Of a stretch of 64,000 nt of DNA, positions 17,038 to 63,679 are shown one piece after another. This DNA comes from a virus: IMG/VR virus record IMGVR_UViG_3300030103_005932, positions 1 to 64,000 of that record. One strand, given 5' to 3'. Every line of letters begins with the position of its first letter. Position 1 is the stretch's first letter. The position numbers were made by a program, and so were the translations under genes. The notes below the pieces were generated by a model. That model ran no database searches. It was not told where the DNA came from and saw nothing but the letters and a program-made list of their open reading frames with translations.

Positions 17038-17451
17038 ATGCCCAATTCAGATAATGCTTTTGGAACTTATAATAAGATAACAATGATCTATGAAAGAGTA
17101 TGGCCAGATCCTGCTCCGGCAGATACTACACAGTTCAGCCAGGCATGGAAAGAAGGCGCAGAAGGTATTGCCGAAGCAAAGGCATGGCATTTCACAGATG
17201 AAGGATTGGCAGTCTTTGACGAGTGTTGCACAGAGTTGCAATGGGGACTTGTTGAGGATGCAGATGGATGGCCAATGAAACTGAAAGCAACCATGACTTT
17301 TGGAACAAAGGGCACACCCGGCATAGCCGCGGCAGATGACTGGGCAGAACAGTTCAAATCAAGAAAGACAGCATTAATTAATGCCAACAATTTCTTTAAG
17401 AATGGTACAACTGCAACAAATGTTACCGAGTCTTCGGAACACTTATTTTAA
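17038..17451 (+). CDS. hypothetical protein, possibly virion
   Basis: 137 residues, with AGGAG before the ATG and a late-promoter-like site upstream. Trp- and Ala-rich, no cysteine cluster or membrane segment; the end is asparagine/threonine-rich. It overlaps the convergent radical SAM gene by 4 bp. Late expression hints at a structural role. Confidence 0.6.
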   Translation: MPNSDNAFGTYNKITMIYERVWPDPAPADTTQFSQAWKEGAEGIAEAKAWHFTDEGLAVFDECCTELQWGLVEDADGWPMKLKATMTFGTKGTPGIAAADDWAEQFKSRKTALINANNFFKNGTTATNVTESSEHLF

Positions 17452-18338
17452 TCTCGCCATTTAGTACCACAGGTCATAGCACAGACAGGATTACATTTTT
17501 TCGTTTTCCATGTGGCAATTAACTTGTGATGGTCCTCAAGAAGTACCACGGGCCTGCCAGGCATATCATATCCATGATAACAACAGGGTGACACTTCACC
17601 TTTGGCATTTATGTAAGTGTCTTTCAGCATTAGATGTTCACACTTGATGTCATAGATTTTTTCTTCAACATGAAAGTTTTGATGCGTCTCTTTGTATCTT
17701 TTGATTCCCGCAGGTACATCATATTTGCCAGGGGCAAGTGATCCGTCTCTGGGAAGTATCCAGTGTGTGATCTTGCCTTCTCTGTTCAAAGCCGGGCCAT
17801 GACTACGCCCGTGATCCTCAACACTAAAATTTTCAAAACCCATGCCAAGGGCAAGTTTCCTGGTTTCTTCTTCCTGGTGAGAGTTATGTGCAAAAGGTAT
17901 CCACTTCCAGGTAGCATGTCCTCCTGCCGCAATAAACCATTTGGCTCTCTCCATCACTTTGTTCCATTGCACATCTTGTCGATATAAGTGGTTTGTATCT
18001 TCCAGTCCGTCTATGCTGAATCTACATTCAACTCCTAGTTCTGCAAGACCCTCCCAGGTTTCTTTTGTCCCTATACTACCGTTCGATGTGACTGATGTTC
18101 TGCAATTTGTAAGTTCGGCTAACTGAACAATGTTTGGATTCATCATGGGATCGCCTAGATGTCCATTGAAGTAAACATAATTTCTTTCGGGAAATCTTGC
18201 CAATGCCTCTTTGAATTTTTCTACAGATAGATTTACTTCCGGATATACTCCTTCGACTTTGTAGCCATAAAGGCTTCTGGGACAGAGCGGACATCTAGCA
18301 TTACAATAAGTGCTGGCCTCTACGTGTAATCTCTTCAT
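17448..18338 (-). CDS. radical SAM protein with C-terminal cysteine domain
   Basis: 296 residues. The [4Fe-4S] site is CNARCPLC (CxxxCxxC) at about 13-20, followed by a partial TIM barrel and a C-terminal SPASM/twitch-like set of cysteines (CEHL, SPCCYHG, CNPVCAMTCG). The protein at 51906 is a paralogue: both share SIDGLxDTNHLYR and the following VQWxKV. Family members modify peptides or small molecules by radical chemistry. It heads an operon-like group with a deacetylase, a glycosyltransferase and SGNH proteins, suggesting glycan chemistry, though the substrate is unknown. Confidence 0.8.
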   Translation of the reverse strand: MKRLHVEASTYCNARCPLCPRSLYGYKVEGVYPEVNLSVEKFKEALARFPERNYVYFNGHLGDPMMNPNIVQLAELTNCRTSVTSNGSIGTKETWEGLAELGVECRFSIDGLEDTNHLYRQDVQWNKVMERAKWFIAAGGHATWKWIPFAHNSHQEEETRKLALGMGFENFSVEDHGRSHGPALNREGKITHWILPRDGSLAPGKYDVPAGIKRYKETHQNFHVEEKIYDIKCEHLMLKDTYINAKGEVSPCCYHGYDMPGRPVVLLEDHHKLIATWKTKKCNPVCAMTCGTKWRD

Positions 18339-31879: not shown

Positions 31880-32236
31880 GTGAGATTTTTCGAATTTAAC
31901 AAAAGCGATACAGACCTTGAGTCGGCTCTGATCAATGTGCTGATGAACATGAAAGGCGATGCTGACGAAAAAGATCAAGCAAGTGATGTTAGCATGGATG
32001 CTGTTCAACAGATAATGAGCAATACAGGATATCCTGCATTCAACTATGATGTCTTTAAAAGAATCTATGACCAGGATGGTGATCTAAAAAATGTTGTTGC
32101 GGACTTTGATAACGAAAAAATTGTTATCAAAACAGACAAGGAAGCAGAAAAAGATCCTGCTATGGACTACGACAATCAAGGTTCTACAGATGTTGTCAAA
32201 AAGATGGCAAGGTCTGCAATGAAAAGAAGATCTTAA
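31880..32236 (+). CDS. hypothetical acidic protein (GTG start)
   Basis: 118 residues, GTG start 2 bp after a weak AAGTAATCCT. Acidic N-terminal two thirds and a short basic end (MARSAMKRRS). The pattern FNYDVFKRIYDQDG suggests a small alpha/beta fold. Overlaps the convergent radical SAM gene by 4 bp. Unknown. Confidence 0.6.
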   Translation: MRFFEFNKSDTDLESALINVLMNMKGDADEKDQASDVSMDAVQQIMSNTGYPAFNYDVFKRIYDQDGDLKNVVADFDNEKIVIKTDKEAEKDPAMDYDNQGSTDVVKKMARSAMKRRS

Positions 32237-33531
32237 AGATCCTTCAACCAATCACTTATTTCAGGAAACACTTTAGTATAATCTGTACCTCTACGTTTAT
32301 CTAATAATGTAAGGTAGGTCTTTAATTGTTTTTGCTTACGTAGGTCAGGTTTTGCATCGGCAAATTCCTTTACATGGCCTTCCATGTATTTCTTTTGTGC
32401 TATCTTTACACTGTCCGGAAATCCATCGGTGTTAGTATCAAATGTATCGATCGCTTTTGTTAGGCCCAACGCATTTATCTTATCTCCGAATATTCCTGGA
32501 TATAGGTATCCGTTACCACTTTCCATGTCTCTGTCAGCCGCCTTCAAGAAACTCCAATAAATTGGTTTTGTTTTGCTCCACTGGTTTATCTTCTCAACCA
32601 TTTGGACCATGCCTGGCACAGATGTCACTGTCAGTGCTGAATTTATCTGTTGTTGCACAGAAGTGTTGTGTAAAATATATTCAAAGTTTTTTTCAAATAG
32701 TTTTAGATCAAGTCCCGATCTTACATACTCTCCTGGTTCTCCCCATGCGTCTAGGCTCCCTACAATGACCAATTTGTCTAGTCGTTGCTGTTCAATTAAT
32801 TTTTCTAAACGATCAACCCAACGCTTGACTCTCTCATGCTCAACATTTAAATTGCTAAAGAAAATTAGTGTCAGATCAGGTAATGTTCTCTTTTCTAAGA
32901 ATTGTATCATCCTTTCTGTTTCTACTTGTAAAAATGGTTCACCACCAAACACATAGATCTTATGGAGGTGTTGGATATTTTTTTCAAACCATTCAAACAA
33001 TCGATCGGTGTCGCGTTTTATGTTTGGATTTAATGTAAAATCATCTGGGTCTAAAACAACTCCATCTTGATCGAATCTTCCAAACCTTTTTTGCTCTGCA
33101 TGTATTTTGTTACTGTAATGAGGTCCACAATAGATGCATTTCATGTTACAAGTGTTCCCCCAGTATATTTCAAGTTGTCTTGGGGTCACTGTTGTGGCGT
33201 CAAGATCTTTATCCAACTCGGGCGGTGCAGTATTACCTTCGAGATATAACTGAATCACTCTATCACTATGTCCTCCTGCTTCTTCGATGTGCTTACAACT
33301 TTCGCAACCTGATGGCCATTTACCGTCTAGCATCTGTTGTCTTTCATTAATCTTTCCTGGTTGATTGTGAAAGTTAAACTCCCCATTTACATTGTAATCA
33401 TGCAACTTCGCTTTATGACAACTTGCACTCTTTCCATCTGTAAGATAGACTGTGCTGAAAGTCCACTTTAATTGACAGGGAAGTCCTTTAGTGATTGGAA
33501 ATTTTTTTGGCGGTTGTTTTGATATACCCAT
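32233..33531 (-). CDS. radical SAM protein, twitch-type
   Basis: 432 residues. An N-terminal cysteine block (SASCHKAK, CESC), then the [4Fe-4S] signature CNMKCIYCG (CxxxCxxC) at about 127-134, a partial TIM barrel with FGGEPFLQ (GGEP, the SAM ribose-binding region), and a long C-terminal domain. The layout fits twitch-type radical SAM enzymes such as the phage/viral family acting on unknown substrates. It overlaps the next gene by one base and probably works with it. Function unknown. Confidence 0.8.
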   Translation of the reverse strand: MGISKQPPKKFPITKGLPCQLKWTFSTVYLTDGKSASCHKAKLHDYNVNGEFNFHNQPGKINERQQMLDGKWPSGCESCKHIEEAGGHSDRVIQLYLEGNTAPPELDKDLDATTVTPRQLEIYWGNTCNMKCIYCGPHYSNKIHAEQKRFGRFDQDGVVLDPDDFTLNPNIKRDTDRLFEWFEKNIQHLHKIYVFGGEPFLQVETERMIQFLEKRTLPDLTLIFFSNLNVEHERVKRWVDRLEKLIEQQRLDKLVIVGSLDAWGEPGEYVRSGLDLKLFEKNFEYILHNTSVQQQINSALTVTSVPGMVQMVEKINQWSKTKPIYWSFLKAADRDMESGNGYLYPGIFGDKINALGLTKAIDTFDTNTDGFPDSVKIAQKKYMEGHVKEFADAKPDLRKQKQLKTYLTLLDKRRGTDYTKVFPEISDWLKDL

Positions 33532-34712
33532 TATGCAAATAATTTAGAATACTCCGGAAATGTATCACTAAATTTTTCCTTCCTTACTGTATCTATTTTC
33601 TTGTTGAATTCCTTGAAAGAGTTTTGATGTTTGTCATAATCAGGTGGTGTGGTATTCAACCATTTTTGCAAATCCTGAAATTTGTTTACCCATACGCGAT
33701 CTGTATTTTTATATTTCGAAAGTTTTTCTATCACGGCCTCTTTGATTTTCTTGGGAAGATATCTGACATCGTTCCACGGTTTGTCATCACACCACATTCC
33801 TATTGCATGTATACCCAATTTTTTAAAGTAGTCATAATTTTCTTCATAATAGTAGATGTTCCATGGTGTAATCGTTGCTCTAATTGTTATTGACACGTTG
33901 TCGTGCCTTTCACAATCTTGCATGTATCTTGAAAGATTGGCCAATATGTTTTTCCATTTACTACCATACCTAATGTATTCGTTCTTTTCTCCAATTGCGT
34001 CAATGCTGAATCCTATGTGGGCACTTTTGAAATTGCTTAACTTCTCAACAAGGTCTTCTTTGTATACCATTCCGTTGGTATGGAGGTTAAACATTTTTTC
34101 TTTCACTGTCGGACTGGCAAGTGCCTGTTCCAACGTCTTCCAAAACAAAGGTATGATCATAGGTTCGCCACCATACATGTCCCAAAAAATAATATTGTCT
34201 TCCCATTCTGCCCATCTCTTTTCTAGTTTTTCATTATTGGTGTAAGCAGTCTTGTGCCGGTCATAGAATGTAAGATAGTCTTTGAATGACTTTCCTTGAT
34301 TATCTAATGCATAGTCTGTTTTGTACCACATGCTACTCGTATGTGAATTACAACTTCTACAGGCATTGTTACATAAGTTGCCAGGCTTCACAATCATTAT
34401 TCTTGGTTGCTCTTCAAGTACTTCAACACCTTGTAGGTCTCTATTGAATCTCTGTCTAGTAGATTCAACACCCGCGTCCTCACGTTGCCAACAGGCTTGG
34501 CAGGCAGGATGCTTGATGTCATTTTTGTGTGCATCAAGTAGTTCTTTGCGATGGGCACTCTTCCATATATCTTTGGCATCATCTGTCAGCACGTTATAAT
34601 GTCTTTGATTTTTATCTTTTAGGTAGTGCCCAATAAGTTGATTGCAAGGTTGCACCATGCCGCTCATGTCGAAGTTCAAAGACAACTGTAAAACTTTACA
34701 CTCTATGGCCAT
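33531..34712 (-). CDS. radical SAM protein, twitch-type
   Basis: 393 residues from the ATG at 34712 (MAIECKVLQLSLNFDMSG); the longer frame from 34874 has no ribosome site. Signature CNNACRSC at about 130-137, then WDMYGGEPMII (GGEP). It shares the twitch architecture of the neighbour but only limited identity, so the pair is related by duplication or co-selection. Together they look like a two-enzyme radical pathway. Substrate unknown. Confidence 0.8.
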   Translation of the reverse strand: MAIECKVLQLSLNFDMSGMVQPCNQLIGHYLKDKNQRHYNVLTDDAKDIWKSAHRKELLDAHKNDIKHPACQACWQREDAGVESTRQRFNRDLQGVEVLEEQPRIMIVKPGNLCNNACRSCNSHTSSMWYKTDYALDNQGKSFKDYLTFYDRHKTAYTNNEKLEKRWAEWEDNIIFWDMYGGEPMIIPLFWKTLEQALASPTVKEKMFNLHTNGMVYKEDLVEKLSNFKSAHIGFSIDAIGEKNEYIRYGSKWKNILANLSRYMQDCERHDNVSITIRATITPWNIYYYEENYDYFKKLGIHAIGMWCDDKPWNDVRYLPKKIKEAVIEKLSKYKNTDRVWVNKFQDLQKWLNTTPPDYDKHQNSFKEFNKKIDTVRKEKFSDTFPEYSKLFA

Positions 34713-34788
34713 TAGTTTACTCCACAGGCCATTATGCTTGTTAGATTGATGGTTGTGATATATGACATTATAATGTATAATTATCTTT

Positions 34789-35493
34789 ATGAAAATACCT
34801 AAAGAGGCTCTCGAAAGCAAAGGTATCGCATATGTTGAGAAATATCCATATGGCGAACTAAACAGGCAGAGCAAAAACGGTAAAAGGCACTATCAGACCC
34901 CAGATGGCAGACTGGTGCCAAGTGTTACCACAGTGTTGAGTGCAACCAAAGATATGACGCACCTACATGCATGGCGTAAGAGAGTGGGAGCCGAAAAGGC
35001 TCAACAGATCACCACAGAGAGTGCTAACATAGGAACCGTGATGCACCGTAGCCTAGAAAAGCACGTGAAGGGTGAAGACCGCACACCGGGATCAAATTTA
35101 ATACAACAAAAAGCACACACAATGGCCAATGTAATCATAGACAACGGATTAAAAGATATTTCTGAGGTATGGGGATCAGAGGTTTCGCTACATTATCCTG
35201 AACTTTACGCCGGCACCACAGACTTGGTTGGAGTGTACAAGGGCGAACCTGCTATTATGGATTTCAAGCAGGCACGTAGATTGAAGAAAAAAGAGTGGGT
35301 GGAGGATTACTATCTCCAATTGGTGGCATACTCCGAAGCACATAACAAACAATACGACACACAGATTAAGACTGGTCGTATCTTTATCTGCACACAGGCC
35401 AACGAATATCAAACATTCGAAATAGACAACTACGATCAGTGGGTGGGTAAATGGTACGCCAAATTGGAACAATACTACAAGTCTATACTGTAA
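34789..35493 (+). CDS. PD-(D/E)XK family nuclease
   Basis: 234 residues. After the alpha helix IGTVMHRSLEKH comes the catalytic pattern TTDLVGVYKGEPAIMDFKQ, in which D, then D-F-K about 13 residues later, form the PD-(D/E)XK site, and VEDYYLQLVAYSEA gives the QxxxY helix of RecB/Cas4-like exonucleases. Matches the PDDEXK-like exonuclease proteins common in marine T4-like phages. Likely in DNA processing or recombination. Confidence 0.75.
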   Translation: MKIPKEALESKGIAYVEKYPYGELNRQSKNGKRHYQTPDGRLVPSVTTVLSATKDMTHLHAWRKRVGAEKAQQITTESANIGTVMHRSLEKHVKGEDRTPGSNLIQQKAHTMANVIIDNGLKDISEVWGSEVSLHYPELYAGTTDLVGVYKGEPAIMDFKQARRLKKKEWVEDYYLQLVAYSEAHNKQYDTQIKTGRIFICTQANEYQTFEIDNYDQWVGKWYAKLEQYYKSIL

Positions 35494-41502: not shown

Positions 41503-42756
41503 ATGGATAATAAGGATTACAAACCTGTTCATACCAATAAGGTAAAAGATAATACATCGCCTTTCACCGGACCGCTTGGATGGTTGGACAACAGGCTACC
41601 GATATTTAGAATGTTCAAGCATGAATATCTTGACTTCCAAGTGCCAAAGAACCTAAACTATTTTTGGAGTTTTGGTGCTATTCTAACATTTACATTACTA
41701 GGATTAATTGCCACTGGCCTGGTGTTAGGTATGCACTACAAGCCAAGTGTGGCAGAAGCATTTTCTAGTGTCGAACACATCATGAGAGATGTAAACGGTG
41801 GCTGGCTGATACGGTACGCACACATGAACTTGGCATCGTTCTTTTTCATTGCTGTCTATATACATATGTTCCGCGGATTATATTTTGGCTCTTACAAAGA
41901 ACCGCGACAACTGATGTGGATATTTGGAATTATTATATACTTTTTAATGATGGCAACTGCTTTCCTTGGATATGTTTTACCGTGGGGACAAATGAGTTAT
42001 TGGGGAGCCACAGTAATTACAAGTTTATTTGGTGCTATTCCACTTGTTGGTGATTCCATTGTAACATTGCTATGGGGAGATTATGCAGTGGGAGATGCAT
42101 TTCTAAACAGAGCATTCGTTTTACACTGGCTGATTGCATTTATAATTGTTTTGGTTGTAGTGTTTCATGTCATTGCTTTACATATGACAGGTTCAAACAA
42201 TCCTACAGGCGTAGAACCCAAGGACACACGAGATACAGTTTCATTTCATCCATACGTGACTATGAAGGACATGTACGCTTTCTTGGTCTTCCTATTAATT
42301 TTTATGCTATTCTTGATGTACGTGCCAAACATATTAGGGCACCCTGACAACTACATAGAAGCAAATCCTTTGGTGACACCTGCCCACATTGTTCCTGAAT
42401 GGTACTTCTTGCCTTGGTATGCTGTATTGAGGGCGATACCAGATAAGTTGGGTGGTGTCATTGCAATGGTTTCCGCTATTGGGGTGATGGCCTTACTGCC
42501 ATGGTTGGACACATCTAAAATACGATCTTCCATATATAGGCCAATATGGAAACAGTTCACTTGGTTTCTAGTTGGTGACTTCTTCCTATTGATGTATTGT
42601 GGAGCCATGCCAGCAGAAGGTGGCTGGATATTATTAAGCAGGATTGGCACTGCGTACTGGTTTGCCTACTTCCTGATACTGGCTCCGGTAGTTGGTTGGA
42701 CAGAAAAACCACGGCTGATACCCGACGCAATACATCTCCGCAACAAGAAAACATAG
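41503..42756 (+). CDS. cytochrome b of the bc1 complex (complex III)
   Basis: 417 residues, full length, with eight predicted membrane helices. It carries both heme pairs: His 107/His 208 and His 121/His 222, spaced 14 residues on each helix, the bc1 rather than b6f pattern. The Qo-site PEWY is intact at 298-301, and the cd loop GYVLPWGQMSYWGATVITSL is typical. This subunit holds both quinone sites of the respiratory complex. No Rieske protein or cytochrome c1 is near, so it would have to join host subunits. It lies 12 bp after nrdB, which supports its being a phage gene and not contamination. Confidence 0.95.
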   Translation: MDNKDYKPVHTNKVKDNTSPFTGPLGWLDNRLPIFRMFKHEYLDFQVPKNLNYFWSFGAILTFTLLGLIATGLVLGMHYKPSVAEAFSSVEHIMRDVNGGWLIRYAHMNLASFFFIAVYIHMFRGLYFGSYKEPRQLMWIFGIIIYFLMMATAFLGYVLPWGQMSYWGATVITSLFGAIPLVGDSIVTLLWGDYAVGDAFLNRAFVLHWLIAFIIVLVVVFHVIALHMTGSNNPTGVEPKDTRDTVSFHPYVTMKDMYAFLVFLLIFMLFLMYVPNILGHPDNYIEANPLVTPAHIVPEWYFLPWYAVLRAIPDKLGGVIAMVSAIGVMALLPWLDTSKIRSSIYRPIWKQFTWFLVGDFFLLMYCGAMPAEGGWILLSRIGTAYWFAYFLILAPVVGWTEKPRLIPDAIHLRNKKT

Positions 42757-44391: not shown

Positions 44392-44619
44392 TTAACTATC
44401 AATCTTGCTACAACCTACTTGTATAGATTTGAAATCCACACGCATCTCATAAAATCCGTCTATAGTTTCTTCAAGTTTTTTATATGAGGCTAGATTGCAT
44501 TCGTCTACAGTTTTGTATATTTTTGGTGGATCTTCGTAATAGGTTGTGCAGTCAACAACACTGGTCATTATATCATCAGGCCACGATGTTAAACACATAA
44601 TTGCAAACATTTCGAACAT
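44392..44619 (-). CDS. small exported protein
   Basis: 75 residues from the ATG at 44619 (MFEMFAIMCLTSWPDDIMTS); the longer 87-residue frame begins inside the tmRNA. A hydrophobic N-terminus suggests a short signal sequence, and cysteines at the start, centre and near the end (QVGCSKID) would suit a periplasmic fold. The block GFYEMRVDFKSIQVGC is one I recall from T4-like marine phages. A TAAATA motif lies 5 bp upstream. Confidence 0.55.
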   Translation of the reverse strand: MFEMFAIMCLTSWPDDIMTSVVDCTTYYEDPPKIYKTVDECNLASYKKLEETIDGFYEMRVDFKSIQVGCSKIDS

Positions 44620-44624
44620 AAAAC

Positions 44625-44630
44625 TATTTA
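44625..44630 (-). promoter_or_regulatory. T4-type late promoter
   Basis: GTAAATAG on the minus strand, 5 bp before the ATG at 44619 and directly after the U-tract of the tmRNA terminator. Confidence 0.5.
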
Positions 44631-44631
44631 C

Positions 44632-44664
44632 AAAAAGTGGCCCGTTCTGTTGCAAGGTGGGCCA
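44632..44664 (-). terminator. rho-independent terminator of the tmRNA gene
   Basis: TGGCCC pairs with GGGCCA around a 15-nt loop and is followed by ACTTTTT. The stem may double as the last pseudoknot stem of the tmRNA coding piece. Confidence 0.6.
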
Positions 44665-44906
44665 AACCCCTGAAATTATTGGTTATTACGCCGCTAATCT
44701 CAATGCAGGCATACTGACTGTTAGGTCAGCAAACCCTAATGCTCTTTTGTTTGCATTTAAAAACGGCCTGTTTAGGTCAGTGCCATCACCGCAAACTCCC
44801 AAGATCTTTACACACCCGTCGAATCTAGTTCACCCCCGGAAGGGATTACATAGGCCACCAAGTAATAAATTGGTGGAGGTGGTCGGTACTGCCCCGACGT
44901 CCGAAA
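44638..44906 (-). ncRNA. ssrA: circularly permuted (two-piece) tmRNA gene
   Basis: On the minus strand the order is permuted. First, a T-arm-like hairpin (GTCGG/CCGAC) and the 3' acceptor strand ending CACCTCCACCA at 44871, with CCA encoded. Then comes an approximately 33-nt loop. The 5' acceptor strand GGGGGTG follows from 44837, with AACTAGATTCGACGGG, the invariant tmRNA 5' sequence. Seven acceptor pairs form, one G-T. The tag frame runs 44754-44683: resume codon GCA, peptide starting ANKRALGF and ending PALRLAA (22 residues), then TAA TAA. This rescues stalled ribosomes by tagging proteins for ClpXP, and the phage also has ClpX and ClpS. Ends are approximate. Confidence 0.9.
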
Positions 44907-44941
44907 TGTTTATTTCATCTTGATCAACATTTACAAATAAT

Positions 44942-44970
44942 ATTTAAGCACAGAGTTGACCTTTTGTCAA
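44942..44970 (-). promoter_or_regulatory. possible promoter of the tmRNA gene
   Basis: A perfect TTGACA (44965-44970) with TTAAAT 17 bp downstream on the minus strand. Its -35 overlaps that of the divergent plus-strand promoter in the sequence TTGACCTTTTGTCAA. Confidence 0.45.
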
Positions 44971-44983
44971 CAATGTGTATAAT
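44956..44983 (+). promoter_or_regulatory. sigma70-type promoter
   Basis: TTGACC, 16-bp spacer, TATAAT, with the expected start about 3 nt before the ATG at 44993. Back-to-back with the minus-strand TTGACA. Confidence 0.75.
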
Positions 44984-44992
44984 TAGAAGTAT

Positions 44993-45196
44993 ATGCCAAA
45001 AAATAGAATTTTCAAATTTGATGATGGGACAGAGACAAAAGATGTTGAAGCTCTTTCTTTCAAGAAGGCCGTGAAGTCATTTCAGGGCAATTCTAAAGCC
45101 AAGATGGTAACTATTGAGTGGACGACGAAGAACGGGGAGGTTTTCGTCAAGGAACAACAATTACCAATTGGTAGAAAGAAAAAGTTAGGCAGGTAA
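44993..45196 (+). CDS. small basic hypothetical protein
   Basis: 67 residues, N-terminus PKNRIFKFDDGTETKDVEAL and a lysine-rich end (LPIGRKKKLGR). Small beta-alpha-beta pattern (KMVTIEWTTKNGEVFVKEQQ). Almost leaderless transcription is predicted. No family recognised. First of a four-gene run of small coupled genes. Confidence 0.6.
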   Translation: MPKNRIFKFDDGTETKDVEALSFKKAVKSFQGNSKAKMVTIEWTTKNGEVFVKEQQLPIGRKKKLGR

Positions 45197-47854: not shown

Positions 47855-48916
47855 ATGATACGTCAAAAACGTCCGACCCAGCAGTACAAATTACTCCAAA
47901 AAGAATATGACGATGTCTATAAGGACATCATGCTGAATGGCTATGATTTCAGTGGACCTTACACAGAAAAGTGCCAAGAAAAACTTAAAGAAATTACAGG
48001 AAGAAAGCATATGTACATGACTATCAGCGGCACCGGTGCCATTACGGCGGCCATATATGCCCTCGACTTATTTGATAAGAAAGTTGCAGTAAGCAGTTGG
48101 AATTATTCGGCCTGCGTTAACCAGTACCAAGCATTTAGCAAACCAGTTTTTGTTGACTGTGATGATAATTTTTTTATAGACATAGAAAAAATACCTTCAG
48201 ACTGTGATGCAGTGATGTTGGTAAATTACTTCGGCAACGTGGTTGACTATGATAAGTTGGCATCTGTGTACAAAGGCAAAGTAGTGGCAGATTGTAGCCA
48301 GGCACTAGGAGCAACCTACAAAGGAAGAACCGACGGATATTTTGGTGATGTCAGCACTTTTGCATTTGGTGGGCAAAAGCCACTAGGAACAAGAGGCTTT
48401 GCAGGTGCAATAGGAACCGACGACGATGACATCGCATATCGAATTGATTGTGTCATCAATCAAGGCAAGGCAGGTGAAAACAGGAACAACAAAACAGAAA
48501 TGTTAGGATTCAGAGGCACACCGCAGGAACTACAATGCGGAATGCTTTATGTTGGTATGAAACACTACAAAGAATGGCAAGAAAAAAGGAAAAAAATTGC
48601 CACACGGATACAAGATGAATTGTCGGATTGCCCATTGCGTTTTATTAAAACAAATTACTGCGACAGCGGATACTTCAAATTGCCGTTTGAATTAGACAAC
48701 AGAGATAAATTTATTGCTTTTATGCATGAGCAAGGAGTTGACGCACAGGTGACATTTCTTGACGACTGGAATGTTGTATTTGGCGATGGTACACCGATGC
48801 CAAACACTCAGAAAATGATATCAAACACAGCAACTTTACCACTTTCACCGTTCTTTTCTGATGAGGAAGTCACTACAATAATTGAAGCAGTGAAAAAATT
48901 TTACAAACAAGGTTGA
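47855..48916 (+). CDS. DegT/DnrJ/EryC1-type sugar aminotransferase
   Basis: 353 residues. PLP-dependent fold with TISGTGAITAAIYALD (phosphate-binding helix), VVADCSQALGA (aspartate for the pyridine nitrogen) and the Schiff-base lysine in FAFGGQKPLG. These enzymes add amino groups to keto sugars in polysaccharide synthesis. Slightly shorter than most (about 370). It would complement the UDP-sugar dehydrogenase and glycosyltransferases of this genome. Confidence 0.8.
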   Translation: MIRQKRPTQQYKLLQKEYDDVYKDIMLNGYDFSGPYTEKCQEKLKEITGRKHMYMTISGTGAITAAIYALDLFDKKVAVSSWNYSACVNQYQAFSKPVFVDCDDNFFIDIEKIPSDCDAVMLVNYFGNVVDYDKLASVYKGKVVADCSQALGATYKGRTDGYFGDVSTFAFGGQKPLGTRGFAGAIGTDDDDIAYRIDCVINQGKAGENRNNKTEMLGFRGTPQELQCGMLYVGMKHYKEWQEKRKKIATRIQDELSDCPLRFIKTNYCDSGYFKLPFELDNRDKFIAFMHEQGVDAQVTFLDDWNVVFGDGTPMPNTQKMISNTATLPLSPFFSDEEVTTIIEAVKKFYKQG

Positions 48917-51905: not shown

Positions 51906-52817
51906 ATGCTAGACAATGTCAAAGAAATACATATAGAACCAACCAGCCTCTGTAATGCAGAATGTCCCATGTGTGCAAGGAATGTTTATGGGAAAATGGT
52001 TAATCCATACATTCGACTAAAGAGTCTGCCTTTGCAATGGTTCGAAAAGAATATTACACCCAAACAGATTAAAGCACTTGATAAGGTATTTTTTTGCGGC
52101 AATGTAGGAGATCCTGCTTCGGCACCCGAACTACTCGACATCATCGCCTATTTCAAATCGCACAATTCAAAGTTGGTTGTCGGACTGAATAGTAATGGAG
52201 GATTAAAAACAACGGAGTGGTGGAGTAAATTGGGACGCCTACTAAACGGTGCTTTAGATTATTGTGTGTTCAGTATTGATGGATTGGATGATACCAATCA
52301 TCTATATCGTAGGAATGTTCAATGGCAAAAGGTTATTGAAAATACAAGTGCATTTATTTCAACAGGAGCAAGTGCTCATTGGGATATGTTAGTTTTTGAA
52401 CACAACAAACATCAAGTGAAAGAAGCAAAAGAGCAGGCAGACAAAATGGGATTCACGTGGTTCAGATCAAAGGAAACTGATAGATGGGATACCTACACAA
52501 AGAACTTGGGACTAATGCCAGCAGAAGACTATCAACCTCCATCTTATGGCAGAAATGTTATTTGTGAGAAAGATAGAGATTCTAGTGTGTTCCTTGATTA
52601 CACCGGTAAGTATTGGCCTTGCTGTCACATGGCAGAAGCATATTTGAATAAGGTTGGATTAGAATTACATAGCGATATACGAGATTATGACAACAAAGAA
52701 CTTTTTCGAGAATACAAAGCACGACTGGTCACAGAAACTCCTTTCTACATCTGTCGTCGAGCATGTGGTTCTAAAGGTAAAAAGTCACAATGGAAGAGTG
52801 AGACACAATTAAGATAA
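51906..52817 (+). CDS. radical SAM protein with C-terminal cysteine domain
   Basis: 303 residues. [4Fe-4S] motif CNAECPMC at about 17-24, GNVGDP in the SAM-binding region, and a C-terminal SPASM-like cysteine set (CEKDR, WPCCHM, CRRACGSKG). It is the paralogue of the protein at 17448-18338: SIDGLDDTNHLYRRNVQW is shared. Substrate unknown; the duplication suggests peptide or sugar targets. Confidence 0.8.
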   Translation: MLDNVKEIHIEPTSLCNAECPMCARNVYGKMVNPYIRLKSLPLQWFEKNITPKQIKALDKVFFCGNVGDPASAPELLDIIAYFKSHNSKLVVGLNSNGGLKTTEWWSKLGRLLNGALDYCVFSIDGLDDTNHLYRRNVQWQKVIENTSAFISTGASAHWDMLVFEHNKHQVKEAKEQADKMGFTWFRSKETDRWDTYTKNLGLMPAEDYQPPSYGRNVICEKDRDSSVFLDYTGKYWPCCHMAEAYLNKVGLELHSDIRDYDNKELFREYKARLVTETPFYICRRACGSKGKKSQWKSETQLR

Positions 52818-57415: not shown

Positions 57416-57722
57416 TAAAGAAAATAAAGCACTTGGCAAGTTAACACTTGTGACACCTCCTTCTATGATCAAACCCGACGACATAAGTTTTACCATAATT
57501 AATTTCAATGACGACCAAAAGAAAACATTTAGCGAAACACTAAATGAAGTGCTTCCATACAACCATGTGACTGTGTTTATTTGGGACAAAGTTACAACCG
57601 AAGATAAGTGGTACAAAATGGCACATGAGATGAGCGACTACCAAATAGACAATCAACAAAACATTGTAGATGTAATTAAAAGCAGTAAGATTGATTATGA
57701 CAGAAGAAAATCTAGTTTGTAG
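57408..57722 (+). CDS. hypothetical protein
   Basis: 104 residues, overlapping the previous gene by 8 bp and the ClpX gene by 26 bp. Beta-like N-terminal half (KLTLVTPPSMIKPDD), Lys/Asp-rich end. No motif recognised. It may be translated together with ClpX. Confidence 0.55.
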   Translation: MDNKENKALGKLTLVTPPSMIKPDDISFTIINFNDDQKKTFSETLNEVLPYNHVTVFIWDKVTTEDKWYKMAHEMSDYQIDNQQNIVDVIKSSKIDYDRRKSSL

Positions 57723-58944
57723 TTTTTGTAATAAAAGCCGTAAAGATGTAACCAAAATGATTGTTGGTGCAAGGAAGACATCTATCTGTAATGAGTGTGT
57801 GAAACTTTGTGTGGAGATACTCGATGAAGATATAGTAAAGGCAAGGAAAGAAAAACTGTATGCAGGTGACAAGAATATTTTAAATCCTGTGGCTATTAAG
57901 GAACATCTTGACCAATATGTCATAGGACAAGACAATGCTAAAACTGTTCTATCTGTTGCAGTGGCCAACCACTATAAAAGAATTGTGCAACCACCTATTG
58001 ATTTTGAATTGGACAAGTCAAATGTGATAGTATTAGGCGCCACTGGTGCAGGAAAAACTTTAATGGCGAGAACGATTGCCAAATATCTAGAAGTTCCTTT
58101 TGCTATTGCTGATGCCACAACGCTGACCGAATCAGGTTACGTTGGCGAGGATGTTGAAAATGTTGTTCAGAAACTCTATGCAAATGCAGACGGTGACATA
58201 GAAAAAACACAAAAGGGCATAATCTTTATAGACGAAATTGATAAGATATGTCGTAAAGGAGAAAACACATCACTTACAAGAGATGTTTCAGGCGAAGGTG
58301 TGCAACAAGGCTTACTTAAGATAGTTGAAGGCACAGAATGTAGAGTGCCTCCCCATGGCGGAAGAAAACATCCAGATCAACAAACTGTAAAGATAGATAC
58401 CACCAATATACTTTTTATAGTAGGAGGAGCATTTACAGAACTTGAAAAACAGATCAGAAGTAAGAAGTCCGGAGGTATGGGATTTGGAACAAAACTGAAA
58501 GAACAGGACGACAGAAACTACCTTTCGGAAGTTAAACCAGAAGATCTTATAAAGTATGGATTGATACCTGAGTTTGTAGGAAGATTCTCTATGATAACCA
58601 ACATTGATTCTTTAAGTGAAGATCAACTGATGAGAATCCTGACAGAACCAAAAAATGCCGTTCTAAAACAAATCAAGTATCTTTTTGGATTGGATGATAT
58701 TGATATTGAGTTTACCAAAGATTCAAAAATAGCAATAGCCAAAAAAGCAAAAGCACTAGGCACAAACGCAAGGGGTCTTAAAAACATAGTAGATTCAGTA
58801 GTCATGCCATATCAGTTTGATGCTAATGAAATGAGAAACAGAGGTGTACACAAGATACAGATCACAGGTGCTGTGGTTGACAAAGGTGCTGACCCTGTGT
58901 TACTATTTAAAAAGACGGATGCGAAAAAACAACAGAACAAATAA
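57697..58944 (+). CDS. clpX: ATP-dependent protease ATPase subunit ClpX
   Basis: 415 residues from the ATG at 57697. Full-length ClpX: N-terminal zinc-binding domain (Cys 8, 11, 31, 34), Walker A GATGAGKT (114-121), pore loop GYVG (147-150), Walker B IIFIDE (175-180), RKH loop (223-225) and GRF (295-297). In the ClpP-binding loop the usual IGF is MGF (261-263), a conservative change that should still dock to ClpP. It unfolds substrates for host ClpP, as no clpP is seen here. It overlaps the bS21 gene by 26 bp. Confidence 0.97.
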
Positions 58945-59202: not shown

Positions 59203-60480
59203 ATGTGCGGAATATACTACTCCAATAAAATTAACAAATATAATTCAACCGGTCTTAAAAGACGTGGTCCTGAAAAATGGACGGAAGAACAAAATGAACT
59301 AGGACATTTTGGACATGGTCTTTTGTCTACCATTGGCGAGAAGACAGAACAACCTCTTCATAACTCTCATGGAATCCTATTATACAACGGGAGCACCTAT
59401 AATCAAAAATCAAATGACACAAAATTTATATCAGATAATTTAAATGACAAAGTAGAAGACTGTGTGGAATTTATTAAAACACTCAAAGGAGAATATGCCC
59501 TAATATACAATACGGAAAAATTTGTGGTATTTGGTTGCGATGTGTTCGCGGTTAGGCCATTATATTTCTACTTTGATGAGCAAACTATTAGTGTGGCAAG
59601 TTATCCTCAGGCACTTGAGCATCACATCGCTCAATACAGATGCGAGGGCAACAAGATCTATGTCTATGATAAAACTACAAAGCATCTTAGAAATGTAACA
59701 AATAAAGAATGGAATCTAATACAAAACATCAACAACTACGACAAGGTCTTTGAAAATTTTGAGGACGCAGTGCAGTTAAGACATACAGACAACAACATGT
59801 ACACAGTCAGCGGCGGGCATGACACTGGAGTAATTGCATCTTGCCTGGAGAAAAAATTTAAGTCATTTCACGGATCATTTGTGTTTCCCCATGGAGAGGA
59901 CGAAAGCATCATGAAGGAACGTGCAATAAGGCACAGATTAAAGCCTGCAAATTTCAAGGAGACAGAAGACCTGCATACAGCCGAACAGGTAAGGCAGATG
60001 TTGTTAAGGAGAAACGATGAGTCGAGAAACTCCTATGCATCAAACGGATTGACAACTATAATTTTAAAATATATGAAACCAAACAATATGAAAATATTAG
60101 TAATGGGATCTGGAGGAGATGAAATTTATGCGGACTATGGATTCGCGGGAGAAAGTATAGACTGGCACGGAGCAGGCGGAAAAAAGGAGCAGGCAACAGA
60201 TTCAAAATTTGGAGGGCATTTTCCTCCTAACCTAGAACTAGTATGGCCTTGGCATAACCATGTTCAATATCAAAGTAAATTCATAGAAAAGCACGAAGCC
60301 GTAGGAGGCTATTGGGGGATAGAAGTAAGATGTCCTTTGCTTGATGCGGACCTTGTACAGTCTTGGTTAAACACTACGCATACCTTGAAAAACAAAGAAT
60401 ACAAAGGATGGATGGCAGAATACATGCGACAAAACAATTATCCTTTTTCTGATAAGAAAAAAACCATATTTGCTTGGTAA
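59203..60480 (+). CDS. glutamine-dependent asparagine-synthase-like amidotransferase
   Basis: 425 residues. Class II glutaminase N-terminus MCGIYYS (Cys 2 nucleophile) and KRRGPE; then the ATP-pyrophosphatase loop SGGHDTG (203-209), a variant of SGGLDSS. GSGGDEIYADY and RCPLLDADLV follow, as in AsnB. Shorter than host AsnB (about 550), with a trimmed C-terminal domain. It may make asparagine or amidate another substrate; the loop variant leaves this open. Confidence 0.8.
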   Translation: MCGIYYSNKINKYNSTGLKRRGPEKWTEEQNELGHFGHGLLSTIGEKTEQPLHNSHGILLYNGSTYNQKSNDTKFISDNLNDKVEDCVEFIKTLKGEYALIYNTEKFVVFGCDVFAVRPLYFYFDEQTISVASYPQALEHHIAQYRCEGNKIYVYDKTTKHLRNVTNKEWNLIQNINNYDKVFENFEDAVQLRHTDNNMYTVSGGHDTGVIASCLEKKFKSFHGSFVFPHGEDESIMKERAIRHRLKPANFKETEDLHTAEQVRQMLLRRNDESRNSYASNGLTTIILKYMKPNNMKILVMGSGGDEIYADYGFAGESIDWHGAGGKKEQATDSKFGGHFPPNLELVWPWHNHVQYQSKFIEKHEAVGGYWGIEVRCPLLDADLVQSWLNTTHTLKNKEYKGWMAEYMRQNNYPFSDKKKTIFAW

Positions 60481-61100: not shown

Positions 61101-61406
61101 ATGACTATGGCTACAGATATACACACACTTACAAAAGAAAAAGTTAAACTAGACGAACCTGGATTATATGATGTCATCTTTTTGAACGACAATATAACGA
61201 CAATGGAATTTGTGGTTAGAGTTCTTAAACAGATATTTGGCAAGACACCGGAACAGGCTCTCAACATAACAAATAAGATACATCAAGACGGACAAGGAGT
61301 TGTCGGCTCGTACGTACACGAAGTGGCAGAGCAGAAAGGTATAGAGACAACACTGTTGGCAAGACAAGAAAACTTTCCGCTACAAATTAAAGTAAAAAAA
61401 CAATGA
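61101..61406 (+). CDS. clpS: ClpS-like protease adaptor
   Basis: 101 residues. The core YDVIFLNDNITTMEFVVRVL and KIHQDGQGVVGSYVHEVAEQ match ClpS, the N-degron adaptor that binds ClpA. The hydrophobic pocket residues (DN, TTM, H-QDG) are in place. The phage lacks clpA here, so it would act with host ClpA. It could redirect proteolysis together with phage ClpX and tmRNA. The second ATG at 61107 is an alternative start. Confidence 0.9.
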   Translation: MTMATDIHTLTKEKVKLDEPGLYDVIFLNDNITTMEFVVRVLKQIFGKTPEQALNITNKIHQDGQGVVGSYVHEVAEQKGIETTLLARQENFPLQIKVKKQ

Positions 61407-62897: not shown

Positions 62898-63288
62898 TCG
62901 TATCAAAGAAATGGGAGATAATTTGGCCTTGTTGGAGGGACATGACAGGTTACAGTATCTGGTTGATAAGGCAAAAGAAGTGGAACCTTTGCCAGATGCG
63001 GCAAAGACTGAAATAAACAGGATACACGGTTGTGCCAGTAAACTGTGGATCATAGGTGGAGCCGATATCGAAAACAAAATGAGATACCAAGTGGACGGTG
63101 ATGCATTCATAACAAAAGGCACTGCCAAAGTGGTCACTGATATTGTTAACGGAGCAGACAAAAAGGAAGTAGCAGGATTGACTGTTGAAAGTTTTACTGC
63201 ATTAGGCATTAAAGAACTGCTGACACTCCAGAGACAGAACGGCCTAGGTGAGTTAATTAACAGGATTATAAGGATAGCAAATGATTGA
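62887..63288 (+). CDS. sufE: SufE-type sulfur acceptor
   Basis: 133 residues. The active-site cysteine is Cys 49 in RIHGCASKLWI, in the position of the SufE Cys that accepts persulphide from SufS. Length and fold match SufE. Here there is no sufS, so it would act on host SufS. With SufT downstream it forms an Fe-S assembly pair, useful for the phage ferredoxin and radical SAM enzymes. Confidence 0.9.
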   Translation: MIIDRIKEMGDNLALLEGHDRLQYLVDKAKEVEPLPDAAKTEINRIHGCASKLWIIGGADIENKMRYQVDGDAFITKGTAKVVTDIVNGADKKEVAGLTVESFTALGIKELLTLQRQNGLGELINRIIRIAND

Positions 63289-63679
63289 AACCCCTCCTGG
63301 ATGGACACCACAACCTAACGCATCGATAGATCCGCAACTAAAAACAGATCTAAATGATATCAAAGAGCATCCGCCAACACAACTAGAATACATGCCAAAG
63401 ATTGTAGAAAAATTAAAAGAGTGTTATGATCCGGAGATTAGTGTAGACATATATAACCTCGGATTGATTTATGATGTTAAGGTTACTGAAGAAGGATACG
63501 TACACGTATTGATGAGCCTAACAAGTGCGTTCTGTCCGGCGGCTGACATGATACCAAGAGATGTACAACAGAAAATTGAAAGCATTCCAAATCTAAAATG
63601 CAAAGTAAAGATCACAATGCAACCTCAGTGGGGAAGAGACATGATCAATCCTGAGATAAGGGAGTTAATGGGATTATGA
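63281..63679 (+). CDS. SufT/MIP18 (DUF59) Fe-S assembly protein
   Basis: 132 residues. DUF59 signature DPEISVDIYNLGLIYDVKV (DPEx..xxDLGL..), and SLTSAFCPAAD in place of the usual TxPxCP cysteine, which is kept. Members help load Fe-S clusters on target proteins. Overlaps sufE by 8 bp and the thyX start. A compact phage Fe-S assembly unit. Function by family. Confidence 0.85.
   Translation: MIETPPGWTPQPNASIDPQLKTDLNDIKEHPPTQLEYMPKIVEKLKECYDPEISVDIYNLGLIYDVKVTEEGYVHVLMSLTSAFCPAADMIPRDVQQKIESIPNLKCKVKITMQPQWGRDMINPEIRELMGL

Follow-up and report, generated by a model that had tools for sequence, protein, structure and literature searches.

A two-piece tmRNA with a long, phage-specific tag in a marine T4-like virus contig that also carries ClpX and ClpS genes

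Introduction

Does a phage carry a tmRNA for ribosome rescue, or for steering proteolysis? The question is raised, in a form that can now be tested, by a locus in a stretch of DNA of 64,000 nucleotides (hereafter, the window), which is part of a 66,627-base (66.6 kb) virus contig from IMG/VR with one tmRNA. Phage tmRNAs of the two-piece kind have been described before. They made up 53 of the 133 unique phage tmRNAs obtained from 18,146 genomes and were present in 17 of 47 Melnitz-like contigs (PMC9004378); they are also present in the isolates Mosig and HTVC008M. The class is therefore not new, and the novelty implied by the first-pass annotation of this DNA was set too high. One role proposed for phage tmRNA is the tagging of host proteins, and the host ssrA gene is also discussed as a prophage attachment site; the word ClpX is absent from that paper (PMC9004378). 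As far as could be checked, the new part is a phage-specific family of tags, together with the gene set linked to it. The tag kept by this virus lineage is unlike those of its probable hosts and apparently selected, and the lineage also has an unfoldase of its own.

Results

Identification of the tmRNA gene

ARAGORN and two Rfam models agree on a circularly permuted, phage-encoded tmRNA gene on the minus strand, as had been proposed from the letters of the sequence alone. ARAGORN placed the gene at 44595–44966 (minus strand), with the tag ANKRALGFADLTVSMPALRLAA followed by two stops. The Rfam model RF04321 (tmRNA_permuted; cut-off, 47 bits) matched over its full length at 44934–44721 (−), with a score of 112.5 bits and an E value of 3.8e-21. 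RF01849 (alpha_tmRNA; cut-off, 50 bits) likewise matched over its full length, at 44992–44636 (−), with 108.8 bits and an E value of 8.9e-29. Both scores are far above the respective cut-offs. The features of the gene, with the evidence for each, are listed here.

44636 to 44934, minus strand: gene for the permuted two-piece tmRNA, with the tRNA-like 3′ piece ahead of the coding piece (ARAGORN, RF04321, RF01849, covariation among 24 relatives)
44882 to 44898, minus strand: T-arm, stem GTCGG/CCGAC and loop GGCAGTA, of the alphaproteobacterial tmRNA type (Rfam, sequence, covariation)
44871 to 44881, minus strand: acceptor 3′ strand CACCTCC (44881–44875), then A73 and the encoded CCA (44874–44871) (sequence)
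44838 to 44870, minus strand: intervening segment of 33 nt, from the CCA to the acceptor 5′ strand (position, from Rfam)
44831 to 44837, minus strand: acceptor 5′ strand GGGGGTG (sequence)
44763 to 44790, minus strand: candidate pseudoknot PK1, GGT/ACC and TGGCACTG/CAGGCC (pairing kept in two sequence types)
44683 to 44754, minus strand: tag frame ANKRALGFADLTVSMPALRLAA with two stop codons (ARAGORN, sequence)
44639 to 44663, minus strand: 3′ hairpin GGCCC-ACCTTGCAACAGAAC-GGGCC, in the coding piece and close to its 3′ end (all five pairs covary)

Read along the minus strand, the elements come in the permuted order, 44881–44871, then 44837–44831, then 44754–44683. The CCA, a spacer, the acceptor 5′ strand and the coding part thus follow one another as in the two-piece genes of Alphaproteobacteria, which is the order that the first-pass annotation had recognized. 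By analogy with known two-piece tmRNAs, the intervening segment is expected to be excised, which would yield two pieces. The two acceptor strands pair over 7 bp, again as annotated, and the pairs include G44835 with U44877, the G3·U70 pair of alanine identity. GATTCGACGGG occurs soon after the acceptor 5′ strand. The resume codon is GCA at 44754; the tag codons occupy 44754–44689 and the double stop 44688–44683, so the gene does have a tag frame of its own. It is near certain that the two-piece tmRNA on the minus strand is real. Its earlier placement at 44638–44906 was right as to location and slightly short at the 5′ limit, since the helices common to both halves start at 44934.

The gene order, the T-loop GGCAGTA (in the window copy), GATTCGACGG and the 3′ hairpin with its GCAACAGAA loop are all shared with the RF01849 tmRNAs of Caulobacter and SAR11. 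The RF01849 score of the window copy, in contrast, is lower than the 190–258 bits obtained in host genomes.

Promoter, neighbouring gene and probable host

Two further features lie immediately upstream of the tmRNA gene.

44942 to 44970, minus strand: predicted tmRNA promoter, −35 TTGACA (44970–44965), 17 nt, −10 TTAAAT (44947–44942) (sequence, family alignment)
44993 to 45196, plus strand: gene for a basic protein of 67 aa, back to back with the tmRNA gene (conserved divergence, promoter scan)

The transcript start predicted from this promoter falls at 44934, where the Rfam match also starts. At the site of the −10 element, many relatives read TATAAT, and TTGAC is kept throughout the family alignment, with a TTGAC-N5-GTCAA repeat in most rows. 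The −35 element lies within this repeat, which is common to the promoter-like site of the 67-aa gene on the plus strand (TTGACC at 44956, TATAAT at 44983). About two such sites per region were expected by chance in the promoter scan; the conservation of TTGAC in the alignment is therefore the stronger argument for a promoter.

The 67-aa gene was divergent from the tmRNA gene in 38/38 contigs in which it was found. Relative to nrdB or neighbours, the orientation of the tmRNA gene was the same in 21 contigs and opposite in 18 (18 and 13, respectively, where the 67-aa gene was also present). Given both orientations and the constant divergence, the pair has been inverted as a unit. The AlphaFold2 model of the 67-aa protein (pLDDT 87) has two strands, a helix, two further strands and a basic tail, and a GRxKK tail is conserved in the protein family. 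A PDB fold search with this model gave no match, and the matches found elsewhere were to uncharacterized viral proteins only.

The source contig is from a T4-like marine virus, with nrdA (nearest to the genes of the Pelagibacter phage Mosig and of marine cyanophages), nrdB, tail spike, exonuclease, DUF6267, Hsp20 and DNA ligase genes as its T4-like surroundings. In many independent contigs the tmRNA gene is embedded among phage genes (nrdA and nrdB of T4-like phages, PAAR and small phage genes); it is phage-borne and not a host contamination. The host probably belongs to the SAR11-type Alphaproteobacteria, because the nrdA product is nearest to that of Mosig, the isolate homologues of the 67-aa protein come from pelagiphages only, and the phage cytochrome b has its nearest match in a Fonsibacter genome. 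Melnitz, Mosig and HTVC008M are, like the source of the window, marine T4-like phages with a permuted tmRNA of the alphaproteobacterial type. Melnitz has a glutamine riboswitch (PMC9004378), whereas no riboswitch of the Melnitz type was detected in the window at E values up to 0.1.

Conservation of the fold

A search with the acceptor-junction pattern gave 61 viral contigs, among them a family that shares the gene order and has a near-identical long tag. Covariation was determined for 24 distinct relatives, using a structure derived from Rfam. This structure was paired in 88.3% of cells, compared with 67.0 ± 1.1 for shuffled controls and only 37–49% for controls slid by 1–3 columns. The covariation was 0.575 versus 0.193 for shuffled data, with 0/500 shuffles as good. 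Both sides were altered in 25 of the 36 pairs, and compensatory changes were seen in nearly every helix. All seven positions of the acceptor stem were paired in 24/24 rows, the U–G of G3·U70 was present in 24/24, and the encoded CCA was invariant. The T-arm, on whose presence the first-pass annotation had let its claim depend, consists of 5 bp that were 100% paired across the 24 relatives, with compensatory changes in 4/5 pairs.

A pseudoknot upstream of the resume codon is also likely. Most pairs of PK1 are kept in both sequence types, with few compensatory changes, and within type B both sides have changed at three pairs; a crude de novo pseudoknot search was not above shuffles in most rows.

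The tRNA-like part is strikingly variable under one tag. T-loops of the sequences GGCAGTA, TTCGACT, TTCAAAT, TTCGATT and TGCAATT were observed, as were two acceptor types, and it looks as though RNA domains have been exchanged around a retained tag. In a phylogenetic tree, the long-tag tmRNAs form a phage clade together with two short-tag phage RNAs (L055 and L165), apart from the SAR11 tmRNAs. The gene has therefore probably been resident in phages for a long time, and the tag was probably altered there. A nucleotide search with the tmRNA gave no match in 50,697 phage records, and that set therefore holds no close isolate of the clade.

Prophages commonly use host ssrA for attachment, and the gene could in principle be a functionless scar of it, but a complete gene with a promoter, with compensatory changes in almost all helices, an invariant CCA and G3·U70, and with a phage lineage separate from the SAR11 tmRNAs makes such an origin extremely improbable, and this explanation was rejected as contradicted by the covariation.

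The tag peptide

A tag-pattern search retrieved 46 viral contigs in addition to the window, all with the core ALGFAD(L/F)TV or a close form of it. The pattern itself demanded the core up to T; earlier sets of contigs (acceptor junction, cytochrome b, ClpX) were gathered without requiring the core. The tag is 22–25 residues long in all 47 contigs (22 in the window) and ends in (L/M)RLAA in every one of them. This conserved tag is a sequence handle with which such phages could be counted in ocean data.

The comparison with host tags, which the first-pass annotation had recommended, revealed a clear difference. The tags of SAR11 genomes have nine residues (e.g. ANESYALAA and ANQKFALAA), and those of host genomes in general mostly have 9–15 and start with ANDN, ANES or ANQK, in contrast to the 22 residues and ALGFADLTV core of the window tag. 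That core was not found in 397 Pelagibacterales genomes. Isolate pelagimyophages have short tags, GEDNFALAA in Mosig and ANFNEYALAA in HTVC008M. The string ALGFADLT is absent from the literature searched, and the tag motif was not found as a natural degron in other proteins of the window.

Codon changes were counted in 17 different 22-codon frames. In codons 5–13, which encode ALGFADLTV and were picked as a region after the alignment had been inspected, there were 7 synonymous changes and 1 nonsynonymous change (P about 0.001 versus random change); P for the whole tag was 0.023. Codons 3–4 and 14–18 had thirteen nonsynonymous and three synonymous changes, and the final RLAA codons showed hardly any variation, even at silent sites. 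The core thus looks to be under selection as a protein sequence.

Loss of an SspB site was considered as the origin of the tag and rejected. No SspB adaptor was found in the phages or SAR11 genomes tested, so such a loss does not explain the tag; among other alphaproteobacterial genomes, SspB was present in only three.

A second long tag, ANKRFVSEVKIPSNFVVGRELLAA, was observed in related phages (L019, 6554–6939; also L026, L051, L054 and L061). In one contig of this type, G013, ClpP and ClpS were found and ClpX was not detected.

Association with ClpX and ClpS

The first-pass annotation had noted ClpX and ClpS in the same window as the tmRNA, and both genes are present.

57697 to 58944, plus strand: phage ClpX, full length, with C4 zinc finger, Walker A/B, GYVG and RKH intact
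61101 to 61406, plus strand: phage ClpS

In the window ClpX, MGF replaces the IGF-type ClpP loop; several relatives read IGF. Full-length ClpX is already known from large phages. The proteins of Agrobacterium phage Atu_ph07, Sinorhizobium phage Phosso and Bacillus phage G are complete and match over nearly the whole length, at 46–49% identity; the window ClpX differs from them in that it falls in a separate clade, one that accompanies long-tag tmRNAs. According to the tree, this is an old clade of its own, apart from host ClpX.

The phage contigs compared are mostly fragments. Of the long-tag contigs found without reference to ClpX, five were 58 kb or longer (G000, G001, G003, G005 and G007), and ClpX was present in 5/5 of these and ClpS in 5/5; of the six shorter than 40 kb, one had ClpX (G017). 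When contigs with ClpX at 66–90% identity were newly found, 9 of 10 had a permuted tmRNA, in all cases with a long tag. Mosig and HTVC008M, which have complete genomes and short tags, differ from the window in that neither ClpX nor ClpS was found in them. Ordinary short tags are seen in large ClpX-bearing phages from other lineages, and pelagimyophages with a tmRNA can be without ClpX, so that in general ClpX and a long tag do not always go together.

G004 and G013 were the only records in which ClpP was detected; the window record and G001 had none, and the phage ClpX would therefore need host ClpP. A search for SmpB in 19 phage records gave no match, so rescue would depend on host SmpB. Mosig and HTVC008M resemble the window in this respect.

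A broader set of ClpX-bearing viral contigs (G051–G095, records up to 344 kb) had a permuted tmRNA in 22/45 cases, far more than would be expected from their rarity in published phage genomes, with genome size, host and a shared clade of nine as confounders. Record G004 (L337, L339), a related contig of 65.6 kb, carries two different ClpP-type proteases besides ClpX and ClpS; no tmRNA was found in this fragment.

Proposed function

What is observed at the locus is the gene architecture, a covarying fold, a conserved non-host tag and intact ClpX and ClpS genes. The gene very likely functions as a tmRNA. There is, moreover, a high probability that it specifies a working two-piece phage tmRNA, charged and delivered by the host, that adds a phage-specific RLAA tag and directs rescued products to ClpXP. 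For the expression, processing and charging of this RNA, the rescue and the degradation of the products, we infer the following course. Transcription would proceed from the sigma-70-like promoter of the gene, and two cuts, one at the CCA and one at the 5′ end of the acceptor, would be made by host tRNA-processing enzymes. Host AlaRS, guided by G3·U70, would charge the RNA with alanine, and host SmpB would deliver it to stalled ribosomes. The 22-residue phage-specific tag ending in RLAA would then be added, and the rescued polypeptides would pass to ClpXP. In the weakest step, some protein would read the tag upstream of the LAA, the best candidate being the phage ClpX or an adaptor; it is the conserved core ALGFADLTV that suggests such a reader.

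This explanation has a weaker and a stronger form. In the weaker one, the phage tmRNA may serve mainly for rescue, as an extra supply for the stalls that arise from degradation of host mRNA, in which case the tag needs its LAA only and the rest is weakly constrained. This has a considerable chance of being correct, if not quite an even one. It accords with the other pelagimyophages, which keep a tmRNA with a short, host-like tag and no ClpX, and with the free variation at tag positions 3–4 and 14–18, but it does not account for nine consecutive core residues that are nearly invariant despite synonymous change, or for a tag length held at 22–25 in all 47 contigs.

In the stronger form, the long tag might be preferred by the phage ClpX, either unaided or helped by an adaptor (the 67-aa protein, for example), and the phage would then pick rescued proteins for destruction after takeover, independently of host tag readers. 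A dedicated route from the phage tag to ClpX is plausible, and the protein-level selection on the core while the tRNA-like part varies, the presence of both Clp genes in all long-tag contigs of sufficient length, the separate old clade of the phage ClpX and the complete short-tag pelagimyophages without ClpX are all consistent with it. The C-terminal LAA should, however, suffice for any ClpX, and so should be readable by host ClpX also; the pore loops of the phage ClpX (GYVG and RKH) are unchanged; and docking to host ClpP would be needed in the window phage and G001. A preference of this kind is regarded as possible but unlikely. Slightly more doubtful is the fuller proposal that a phage clade swapped the host label for a tag of its own, with the core read by the phage ClpX and possibly the 67-aa protein as adaptor. 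If that were true, the choice of incomplete proteins to be destroyed in the infected cell would be under private control of the phage.

The earlier suggestion of an alternative degradation tag is thus upheld in part: a tag unlike those of SAR11, an apparently selected core and the ClpX and ClpS genes in 5/5 of the longer long-tag contigs lend it indirect support. That the phage ClpX reads the tag, or that ClpS takes part, is a hypothesis; in studied bacteria ClpS is an N-degron adaptor for ClpA. The tag and ClpX could be reconstituted as a pair in vitro without phage culture.

Other genes of the contig

A complete cytochrome b gene of the bc1 type (41503–42756, plus strand; 417 aa; PF00033, PF13631 and PF00032) is situated between nrdB and the gene for the PAAR protein. 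No earlier report of a phage cytochrome b gene was found in the literature searched. Its relatives comprise 33 viral loci, mostly 65–97% identical. The locus is constant within the clade of the window and lies elsewhere in other phages, and some members of the clade are without the gene. The nearest cellular cytochrome b (71%), that of the Fonsibacter genome, is inside a normal Rieske–cytochrome b–cytochrome c1 operon; Rieske and c1 genes do not adjoin cytochrome b in the window. The source contig also encodes at least four radical-SAM enzymes (17448–18338, 32233–33531, 33531–34874 and 51906–52817), a DegT aminotransferase (47855–48916), an asparagine-synthase-like protein (59203–60480) and an iron–sulfur assembly protein (63281–63679).
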